Of a stretch of 64,000 nucleotides of DNA, positions 48,738-56,857 are shown in pieces; the stretch's first letter is position 1, and the number at the start of each line of letters is the position of its first letter. The position numbers were made by a program, and so were the translations under genes. Below the pieces are notes generated by a model. That model did no database searches. It was not told where the DNA came from and saw only the letters and a program-made list of their open reading frames with translations. Where the stretch lies: NCBI RefSeq assembly GCF_003206065.1, contig NZ_PZJQ01000003.1, forward strand, positions 136,099 through 200,098. The letters run 5' to 3'. Source of the DNA: Salinicola halimionae. Its GTDB lineage: Bacteria; Pseudomonadota; Gammaproteobacteria; Pseudomonadales; Halomonadaceae.

Positions 48738-49685
48738 ATGAATCTCGACCTCAGCGCACTCAAAAGCCAGCTTTCATATGCGTTACCCTTAGCGCTGACT
48801 ATTTATTCGATGTTCGTGGAGCTTCCGTTGTCCGACCTTCCCCCTCTATTTATCTGGCCGCTGGCGTTTCTATTCGGCGCGGCGCTTGGCAGCTTTCTCA
48901 ATGTCGTCATCGTACGGCTGCCGGTGATGCTGATGCGGCGGTGGCGAGCCGAGGCGCTGGAAGCCCTGGAGCAGCCGACGGAAGCCAACGCGCCTTACAA
49001 CTTGGCGACGCCACGCTCGCACTGCCCGAGCTGCGGCCATTTCATCGCCTGGCACGATAATCTACCGCTGATCGGCTGGCTCAAGCGTCGCGGCCGCTGT
49101 GCGGCCTGCGGCACGTCGATCAGCGCCCAGTATCCGCTGGTCGAACTGGCCTCGGCGCTACTGACGGTGGCAGTCATCGCACTGCACGGTTTGAGCTGGC
49201 AAAGCCTGTGGTTGATCGGCGCCTGCCTGACGTTGTTGACCCTGGCCGTCATCGATTGGCGAACCCAACTGTTGCCGGATGCATTGACCTTGCCGCTACT
49301 CTGGGCCGGACTGCTCTATCAATGGCTGTTCGACCAGCTGATGCTGGGTAGCGCCGTGCTGGGTGCGGTCGCCGGGTATCTATCGCTGTGGTCGGTCTAC
49401 TGGCTATTCAAGCTGACCACCGGCAAGGAGGGCATGGGCTACGGTGACTTCAAGCTGATGGCGGCGCTCGGCGCCTGGTTAGGCTGGCAGAATCTGCCGC
49501 TGCTGCTGTTGCTTTCCGCAGGCCTCGGCGCAATTGTGGGCTTGATCCTGATCGCCTCGCGACGGCAGAACCGAGACCAGTCAATGCCGTTCGGGCCCTA
49601 CATCGCGCTGGCCGGGTGGATCTCGCTGCTGGTCGGCGCTCCGCTGCTGGCCGGCTATCAGGCGTTGCTGATGGGAGGCTGGTAA
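48738..49685 (+). CDS. pilD: Prepilin peptidase / N-methyltransferase PilD
   Basis: 315 residues with about eight membrane segments. The N-terminal methylase-like region has two zinc cysteine pairs (CPSCGH and CAACGT). Catalytic aspartates are in IDWRTQLLPDALTLPLL and GMGYGDFKLMAALGAWLG. It cuts prepilin leaders after glycine and methylates the new N terminus, acting on PilA. Its TAA overlaps the coaE ATG by one base. The N-terminal extension is about 20 residues longer than average. Confidence 0.96.
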   Translation: MNLDLSALKSQLSYALPLALTIYSMFVELPLSDLPPLFIWPLAFLFGAALGSFLNVVIVRLPVMLMRRWRAEALEALEQPTEANAPYNLATPRSHCPSCGHFIAWHDNLPLIGWLKRRGRCAACGTSISAQYPLVELASALLTVAVIALHGLSWQSLWLIGACLTLLTLAVIDWRTQLLPDALTLPLLWAGLLYQWLFDQLMLGSAVLGAVAGYLSLWSVYWLFKLTTGKEGMGYGDFKLMAALGAWLGWQNLPLLLLLSAGLGAIVGLILIASRRQNRDQSMPFGPYIALAGWISLLVGAPLLAGYQALLMGGW

Positions 49686-50338
49686 TGCACACGAGCGGTA
49701 CGCAAAGCGAAGCCGAGACCGCCACCCTGGTGGTCGGGGTTACCGGCGGAATCGGCTCGGGCAAGAGCGCGGTGGCGGATGCCTTTGGCGCGCTGGGGAT
49801 CGGGTGGGTCGATGCCGACCAGGTGGCGCGGGAAATCGTCATGCCGGGTGAACCGGCACTGGCCGCTATTGCCGAACGCCATGGTCCGACGATCCTGCAG
49901 CGGGACGGCACGCTCGACCGACGCGCCCTGCGCGCTCGGATATTCGACGACGAGGCGGAACGCCGGTGGCTGGAACACGAGACCCACCCGCGTATCCGTC
50001 AGGGTCTGATGAGGCACCTGGAACGGCTGGCCGGCAGCGGCGCGCCGTACTGCCTGCTGGTCTCGCCGCTGCTGATCGAGTCAGGGCAGCGCGAGCTGGT
50101 CGATCGGATTCTGGTGGTCGACGTGCCGCAGGAACTCCAGATTTCCCGCACCCTGGCACGCGATGGTGTCGATCGACGTCAGGTGGAATCCATCATTGCC
50201 GCCCAGAGCCCGCGGGAACGTCGTCTTGCAGCCGCCGATGACGTCATCGACAATGGACGCGACCACCAACATCTACTCGAACAGGTCGCCCGGCTGGATA
50301 TCCGCTATCGTCAACTGGCTCGTTCACGGGAACGATAG
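49685..50338 (+). CDS. coaE: Dephospho-CoA kinase
   Basis: 217 residues. It performs the last step of coenzyme A synthesis. The P-loop is [22 protein letters not shown], with [11 protein letters not shown] and the substrate loop [20 protein letters not shown] and [18 protein letters not shown] complete the family pattern. GGGAGG precedes the ATG, which overlaps the pilD stop (TAATG). The pilD-coaE-yacG order is typical of gammaproteobacteria. Confidence 0.97.
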
Positions 50339-53130: not shown

Positions 53131-55863
<2,733 letters not shown>

Positions 55864-55870
55864 GATGTAG

Positions 55871-55975
55871 TTCCTGCCTAACTCTGTTCTTGTGCTGCGC
55901 TGGGGCAACGACACGACGAACGACCCGCATCGGCTGCCGATATGATGAAACGTGTAACCAGAGATCAGACAGAAA
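55871..55975 (-). promoter_or_regulatory. Possible arrest-controlled structure masking the secA ribosome-binding site
   Basis: The secA Shine-Dalgarno region AGGCAGGAA (55871-55879) can pair over nine consecutive bases, with three G-U pairs, with UUUCUGUCU (55967-55975), which encodes the last codons of the SecM-like leader. A small hairpin ATCGGC-A-GCCGAT lies in the loop. This is read by eye; no folding was calculated. Confidence 0.45.
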
Positions 55976-56309
55976 TCGGCGGGCCGCGACGGGAGATGAC
56001 GTCCAGCGCAGCACTGAGAGTGATGACGGGTTCGACATAGACGGAGCGTTGCGACAGAGCGGCCGCGGCTTGCGGGTGCGTGGGGCGCTTGGCGGCAACG
56101 CGCGCAACACGCCGGGATTCCGCACGGATGGCCTCCGGAGCCATCAGATAGACCTGGGTGAGGCGCTCGGCCAGCCGCAATGCCTCGGCGTGAATCAGGC
56201 CCGCGGGCAACAGACAGCCGACCAGCACACTGGCCAGCCACCAATGGGCTCGCTGCCGGGGGCGCCAGATTGCGCCACGCTGACCGGACTGCGCTTTGGC
56301 CGAAGTCAT
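55965..56309 (-). CDS. SecM-like secretory leader with C-terminal RRGPP motif, putative arrest peptide
   Basis: 114 residues in the position of secM, directly before secA. Residues 22-41 are hydrophobic ([20 protein letters not shown], followed by EA), a likely signal peptide. The middle is basic and Ala-rich. The C terminus is [10 protein letters not shown] and then TGA: Arg107, Arg108, Gly109, Pro110, Pro111. E. coli SecM arrests at an RAGP, and RAPP-type motifs act in other monitors of the export system; RGPP is a close variant. The proposed role is to sense Sec activity by stalling and to raise secA translation. GGAG lies about 12 bases before the ATG. Divergent from dciA. Confidence 0.72.
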
Positions 56310-56371
56310 GCTGTCGACGAACTCCGCGTCGTGATAGGTTTAGCGGGTCATTTCCCACTGCGTGCAAGCCG

Positions 56372-56857
56372 ATGAGTATAAAGGCTAAGCGTTTACGAGC
56401 CCAGCCCGTTTCCCGACTGCTGGAACAACCCGGCGGATTGGGTGACGTCATGCGCATGGCGACACTGATCGAACGCGCCCAGACCCATCTGCGAAGCCAC
56501 GTGCCACCGGACGTCGCCGAACATCTCTACGTGGGCGGCTATCACGACGGCGTGCTGACGCTGATCACCGATCGAGCCGCCTGGCTGACCTGGCTACGCT
56601 ACGAGCAGCCGCGCCTGCTCAAGCTGTTGCATCAGTTGCCGGGGTTCGAGGCGATCATGAAATTCTCGCTGAAGGTACGCCCCATACGTCCCGTCAAGGC
56701 AGTGCCGCGCCAAACCCGCCGCCTGTCGCCGGCCGGCGCCGAGGCGCTCTCTCACTGCGCGGAGAGTCTCGATGATTCGCCACTCAAGCGATCGTTGAAT
56801 CGACTGGCCTCCCACGCCGATGTGCCATCCGAGTCTGGCGACGAGCCCTCAGCGTGA
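56372..56857 (+). CDS. DUF721 protein, DciA-like helicase loader
   Basis: 161 residues. The conserved half is [64 protein letters not shown] in character: the KH-like DUF721 domain, with the [19 protein letters not shown] portion most typical. DciA recruits the replicative helicase DnaB in bacteria without DnaC. ATG 56372 lacks a strong ribosome-binding site, but longer frames are not homologous. The gene is divergent from the SecM-like leader, 62 bases apart, and convergent with lpxC. Confidence 0.85.

Follow-up and report, generated by a model that had tools for sequence, protein, structure and literature searches.

The secA gene analysed here is directly preceded by a short leader ORF that ends close to an Arg-Gly-Pro-Pro (RGPP) motif, and one such leader has persisted upstream of secA in most of the Halomonadaceae. 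It is highly probable that this ORF encodes an arrest peptide of the RAPP/RGPP class that monitors Sec export. By analogy with relatives that have been tested, its ribosome would very probably stall at Arg-Gly-Pro-Pro, as a means of sensing secretion trouble. Since the leader is found in 20 of the 24 family genera sampled, the Halomonadaceae probably regulate SecA by secretion sensing, through an analogue of SecM that has no detectable homology to it. The leader is a new case of a kind of secA leader already described in 2024, so that the kind itself is not new; what is added here, from folding models, is detail on how the leader mRNA may conceal the start site of secA.

The leader ORF and its surroundings

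The window, i.e., the whole stretch of 64,000 nucleotides that was analysed, contains the following features around the leader:

55965-56309, minus strand: leader ORF, 114 codons with an ATG start, putative monitoring substrate of the arrest-peptide type
56187-56246, minus strand: signal-sequence region, residues 22-41, from hydropathy and conservation, with the core L29-x-G-C32-L33-L-P35
55977-55988, minus strand: putative arrest motif R108-G109-P110-P111, from the sequence and from R[G/A]PP in 130/130 fetched homologs
55977-55982, minus strand: predicted stall site, with the P110 codon in the P-site (55980-55982) and the P111 codon in the A-site (55977-55979), by extension from toeprints of RQH members (PMC10987492)
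55872-55879, minus strand: secA Shine-Dalgarno region AGGCAGGA, from the sequence
53131-55863, minus strand: secA, with Pfam matches to SecA_DEAD, P-loop_SecA, SecA_SW, SecA_PP_bind, and SEC-C
56372-56857, plus strand: dciA, divergent and flanking the leader (PF05258, E 7e-12)

A sequence-only reading of this DNA had pointed to a 114-residue ORF directly upstream of secA, with a signal-like N-terminus and an RGPP tail three codons from the stop, and all three observations hold. The ORF ends 101 nt before the secA ATG at 55863, and its C-terminus consists of R108-G109-P110-P111, three further residues, and the stop codon. Its hydrophobic maximum covers residues 25-39, with a mean Kyte-Doolittle value of 2.32, and is preceded by a basic N-terminus. 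The signal region ends near residue 41 and the motif lies at residue 108, leaving a spacer of more than 30 residues. The leader is without a match in Pfam or NCBIfam; it is 92% identical to that of Salinicola halophyticus, and Salinicola, a genus of the Halomonadaceae, provides the nearest named relatives. Farther upstream on the minus strand, genes resembling lpxC, ftsZ, and ftsA were recognized by eye only. A scan of 55700-56500 returned no consensus promoter and no terminator-like site between the leader and secA; the single terminator-like match in this region (56219-56240) lies inside the leader, and shuffled sequences give 0.7.

A motif present by chance is unlikely. Only 3 of the 264 ORFs of 60-300 aa mechanically called in the window carry R[AG]PP in their last 20 residues, and the leader is the sole ORF among the 264 that combines the motif with a strongly hydrophobic N-terminus, in addition to which R[G/A]PP is found in every fetched homolog. 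Elsewhere in the window, a 153-codon ORF (49450-49911, minus strand) has the C-terminus RRRAPPSA; it overlaps a long ORF of the opposite strand, its N-terminus is not strongly hydrophobic, and it is probably fortuitous.

Spread and conservation of the leader in Halomonadaceae

Of 151 Halomonadaceae genomes, 135 contain a homolog of the leader, the genome of the window being counted, and the loci of 130 of these were fetched, five being left out. All 130 adjoin secA directly, and their motif is RGPP in 124 cases and RAPP in 6. Scanning the ORFs upstream of secA for the motif gave R[AG]PP in 128 loci (122 RGPP and 6 RAPP), and the remaining two loci were both read by hand as RGPP. The sole change at the second position of the motif is thus from G to A, which yields the other strong arrest motif. 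Among 128 homologs, the motif is preceded by R in 104, P in 12, Q in 10, and C in 2, and several homologs have the motif arginine at R109 vs R108 in the leader of the window.

The family alignment amounts to a natural variant series, with RGPP or RAPP motifs, tails of 1 to 44 residues, and a single leader frame that meets no stop before reaching SecA. The RAPP-bearing variants, which lend themselves to a comparison of arrest strength, are L054, L057, L114, L115, L119, and L123. The 44-residue tail belongs to the RGPP leader of L118, where it overlaps the secA start. In L065, a locus of 1501 bases from genome G071, the frame of the RGPP leader lacks a stop and reads in frame into SecA; a leader-SecA fusion is possible there, and a sequencing error may also explain this arrangement.

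The signal core is strikingly conserved as well. Residues L29, C32, L33, and P35 are invariant in the 128 tabulated homologs, all of which display the core pattern L-x-[GST]-C-L-[LFW]-P, and the distance from the cysteine of this core to the RGPP arginine is 75-82 residues (median 78) in 128/128. The invariant cysteine follows G, S, or T, is in a lipobox-like context in 126/128 homologs, and is itself followed by L-L/F/W-P; the core may be a lipoprotein signal or serve another purpose.

The sequence-only reading had proposed an alignment of relatives as a check on whether the signal peptide and the RGPP tail are what is kept, and this is the pattern obtained. Among 47 representative leaders, mean pairwise identity reaches 97% over RGPP and 76% over the signal core (residues 21-38); it is 41% over residues 39-65 and likewise over 99-106, 28% over residues 1-20, and lowest in the spacer (residues 66-98, 22%) and in the tail that follows the motif (11%). 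Judged from sequence, a signal, a fixed spacing, and an arrest motif are together the pattern foreseen for a Sec monitor.

These data also bear on the alternative that the ORF encodes an ordinary small exported or membrane protein, with a fortuitous C-terminal RGPP and an incidental proximity to secA. The signal core is indeed conserved beyond the apparent need of a plain signal peptide, a feature that arrest alone leaves unexplained. However, RGPP/RAPP is the best conserved part of the protein while its mature region drifts, and RGPP, one of the most avoided tetrapeptides in bacteria (PMC12992588), is nonetheless represented with RAPP in 130/130 homologs that all lie directly before secA. An ordinary protein is thus most improbable, and the conservation pattern argues instead for a Sec-monitoring arrest peptide.

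Genomes without the leader and relationship to SecM

Loss of the motif or of the open frame in close relatives had been named in the sequence-only reading as a refutation of its call. The motif turned out to be retained in every fetched homolog, but the leader as a whole is missing from 16 of the 151 family genomes (genera g3, g4, g22, and g24; loci L131-L146), in which a motif scan found no R[AG]PP leader either. All 16 possess secA, and in all 16 the nearest long ORF upstream of it ends, as judged by eye, in an M23-peptidase-like HxH sequence; the four such ORFs that were checked all have a Pfam M23 match, and in L134 the M23-type ORF ends about 550 nt before secA. The genome of the window has five M23 matches elsewhere.

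GTDB places the Halomonadaceae in the Pseudomonadales, and the leader was also sought in the rest of this order. A leader profile gave 23 matches in 390 sampled genomes of the order; 18 were full length and all of these came from Halomonadaceae, the other five being weak and partial, or interrupted by stops. In addition, 83 genomes of other families (23 plus 60 chosen, out of 185 non-family genomes with secA) were scanned for ORFs that span 50 codons or more and end close to secA. In none of these ORFs did the last 25 residues include a RAPP-like motif, within the roughly 600 bases fetched per locus (206 only for L321), so that a leader starting farther out could escape. One LPPP was seen among these 83 loci and is probably due to chance.

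The absence of resemblance to SecM noted from the sequence alone was confirmed: the SecM family PF06558 matches neither the leader, nor 47 of its homologs, nor anything in the whole genome, whereas the E. coli control does match. Descent from E. coli SecM in the sense of membership of that family was consequently rejected. A looser version, in which the leader would be a true but diverged SecM homolog of common descent, is compatible with arrest and can draw on the shared place before secA, the signal sequence, the short tail, and a C-terminal R-x-G-P-like motif, as RRGP overlaps RGPP. It is nevertheless exceedingly improbable given that, besides the negative PF06558 searches, the F-x4-W-I-x4-G-I element is missing, the 83 genomes of other families yielded no RAPP-like leader, and full-length profile matches were restricted to Halomonadaceae. 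With the leader confined to this family within the samples of the order, no bridge to Enterobacterales is seen.

Predicted masking of the secA Shine-Dalgarno sequence

Structure predictions suggest that the 3' codons of the leader hide the secA Shine-Dalgarno sequence beyond what synonymous recodings do, across 20 genera, which is the new and computational part of this work. The energy needed to open the Shine-Dalgarno sequence was calculated for the native leader-secA RNA and for 40 synonymous recodings per locus, in 124 of the 125 distinct loci. Its mean was 3.95 kcal/mol for native vs 2.71 kcal/mol for recoded RNAs, and the native RNA had the higher genus mean in 16 of the 20 (Wilcoxon p=1.3e-4); no excess over synonymous recodings was seen in genera g10, g11, g13, and g15. 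Native RNAs ranked below 0.05 among their recodings in 24 loci and below 0.25 in 67 loci. Folding of a shorter stretch agrees (5.2 vs 3.4 kcal/mol, in 75 of 77 chosen loci with at most eight per genus), and the ranks of single loci shift with the stretch folded, as for L010 (0.03 vs 0.5).

Predicted partners of the Shine-Dalgarno sequence lie within 24 nt of the RGPP arginine codon in 47% of cases vs 22% for an equally long upstream stretch, a count over 121 loci of 20 genera that is made without a recoding control, and they peak at the V-L codons, at the proline codons, and in the tail. When the D-V-L codons, which span 15 to 6 nt upstream of the arginine codon, are set against a Shine-Dalgarno sequence anchored on GGA, 6.42 of 10 positions match (genus mean; 120/125 loci, 19 genera). 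This register is the top one of 73 shifts (3.68 for the others, sd 0.57), and at least 8 of 10 pairs are found in 27/120 loci at register 0 vs 46/8640 at other shifts. Synonymous recoding lowers the match only to 5.95, with 14 of the 19 genera favouring the own sequence (p 0.02), and the match is thus mostly encoded by the amino acids, with a small part due to codon choice. It is 9.1/10 in g19 and only 5.5/10 in g1, the genus of the window. In g1, the tail and stop codons form the arm in 8 of 18 minimum-energy folds inspected by eye (L002, L004, L005, L010, L011, L012, L014, and L018), with 18 pairs in L002.

Other measures gave weaker signals. Arms score 6.64 against their own Shine-Dalgarno sequence vs 6.43 after swapping between genera (110 loci); covariation is thus weak, and strong covariation is not claimed. 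A table of the third base of the D codon vs the facing Shine-Dalgarno base gives a Fisher p of 0.005, a test that takes no account of relatedness and omits the cells containing C or T. The energy of the arm-Shine-Dalgarno duplex stands out only weakly from synonymous controls (mean z -0.31, with 8% of 121 loci at p<0.05), and this measure was replaced by the opening energies of the folded region. A comparison of opening in the native and stalled states was set aside as evidence, since removal of upstream RNA loosens any fold.

Three elements of the RNA of the window itself relate to this proposed masking:

55994-56003, minus strand: codons D103-V104-I105 and the first base of S106; this arm is complementary to the secA Shine-Dalgarno sequence in several other genera and weakly so in the genus of the window
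55959-55975, minus strand: tail and stop codons, with 16 possible base pairs (one bulge) to the secA Shine-Dalgarno region at 55871-55886; predicted duplex of -21.0 kcal/mol, outside the minimum-energy fold
56003-56014, minus strand: 5' arm of a helix of 12 perfect base pairs in the predicted fold, with its partner at 55892-55903, before the secA Shine-Dalgarno sequence

The helix between the tail and the Shine-Dalgarno sequence lies 11.5 kcal/mol above the minimum-energy fold, and masking in this RNA is not stronger than in its synonymous controls (ranks 0.94, 0.97, and 0.38, for different stretches folded). In the full fold, the GGC and GG of AGGCAGGA are mostly paired, with unpaired probabilities of 0.05-0.13. 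As for the 12-bp helix, it was dropped as a regulatory mechanism because the results for the remaining leaders of the genus list no such helix.

A possible mechanism for secretion-dependent control of secA

By extension from the tested relatives, once R108-G109-P110 has been made, P110 would sit in the P-site and the Pro-tRNA for P111 in the A-site, no peptide bond would form, and the ribosome would stall. The exported N-terminus, some 70-80 residues ahead of the stall site, would then be pulled by SecA/SecYEG, thereby releasing the stall, which would last when export is slow. Computational results for the family, though not for the window, support a further step, in which leader codons shortly upstream of, within, and downstream of RGPP would pair with the secA Shine-Dalgarno sequence and hide it. 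A ribosome with P110 in its P-site would, from its geometry, cover or abut these masking arms; parked at RGPP, it would block their pairing, and secA would thus be translated more when secretion is impaired. That export frees the stall and that the stall raises secA expression is inferred, both ideas being carried over from SecM and from the RGPP leader of Alteromonas secDF2.

A bolder possibility, judged somewhat less likely than not, is that the final conserved segment of the leader has a dual role in Halomonadaceae. Its D-V-L-x-R-R-G-P-P codons would encode the arrest peptide and at the same time a GAYGUCCUGA-type anti-Shine-Dalgarno strand that hides the secA start, so that the switch would lie under the rear edge of the very ribosome that is stalled. 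In leaders with a weakened D-V-L, among them part of the genus of the window, the arm would move to the tail and stop codons. The family alignment makes this proposal of a dual-coded mask testable.

Masking by leader codons across the family would also fit a control of secA that involves no programmed arrest and acts only through RNA structure and translational coupling, with RGPP kept for slow decoding of prolines relieved by EF-P. Pro-Pro slows ribosomes generally, and the published in vitro assay of uA_RQH_Pseudomonadales, the group of secA leaders considered below, was performed without EF-P (PMC10987492). Yet the arginine, which mere Pro-Pro slowing does not need, is as invariant as the prolines, and RAPP and RGPP arrests survive EF-P in the contexts tested (PMC12992588), which makes control without arrest very unlikely. 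Programmed arrest at RGPP remains the preferred reading.

Comparison with known arrest peptides

The sequence-only reading had envisaged an undescribed arrest sequence, a suggestion that did not survive comparison with the literature: RGPP is already described and tested as a strong arrest motif, and a group with R109GPP stalls in vitro (PMC10987492; PMC12992588). The latter group, uA_RQH_Pseudomonadales, comprises secA leaders of some members of the Pseudomonadales and stalls both E. coli and B. subtilis ribosomes in the PURE system, with an arrested fraction above 0.9 (Fujiwara et al. 2024, PMC10987492). According to the same study, RQH members stall with the third residue of the motif in the P-site, as seen by toeprinting, the majority also bring about arrest in living E. 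coli cells, and peptides of this kind are without overall similarity outside the motif. In the contexts tested elsewhere, RGPP generally gives the strongest and most robust arrest of the class (PMC12992588), and RAPP arrest reflects a blocked peptide bond with the Pro-tRNA fully accommodated (PMC10951233). In the literature searched, no report was found that links Halomonas or Halomonadaceae to an arrest peptide or to translation arrest, and a single paper uses the group name uA_RQH_Pseudomonadales.

As far as tested on its sequence, the leader has the features that define uA_RQH_Pseudomonadales, namely a uORF position before secA, a predicted N-terminal signal, a C-terminal RAPP-like motif, and a spacer between the two. 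Leaders with RGPP before secA were found only in Halomonadaceae in the sampled part of the order, and the published group is therefore very likely the Halomonadaceae one. The two share a uORF of secA, an N-terminal export signal, RGPP near the C-terminus (R109 there vs R108 here, with R109 also in several of the present homologs), and the lack of an annotated function; the published group lies in the order Pseudomonadales, to which GTDB assigns the Halomonadaceae.

With E. coli SecM, the leader shares its place before secA, an export signal, a C-terminal arrest motif, and a presumed induction of secA through exposure of the Shine-Dalgarno sequence. In contrast to SecM, whose arrest sequence is defined as F-x4-W-I-x4-G-I-R-A-G-P (PMC10987492), it has RGPP rather than RAGP, is without the F-x4-W-I-x4-G-I element, and lacks a PF06558 match. 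ApdA and ApdP, the RAPP leaders of secDF, have the same Arg-small-Pro-Pro core and the expected P-site/A-site geometry (PMC10951233), but their downstream gene is secDF and they belong to other lineages. Lastly, uDF_RQH_Enterobacterales of Alteromonas, with R125GPP before secDF2, is also an RGPP leader; its stall exposes a masked Shine-Dalgarno sequence, and it thereby induces secDF2 via a stem-loop that masks this site (PMC10987492). Here the difference lies in the downstream gene, secDF2, and in the masking arm, which in Halomonadaceae is often predicted to reside either in the D-V-L codons, shortly upstream of the stall site, or farther on, in the tail and stop codons.
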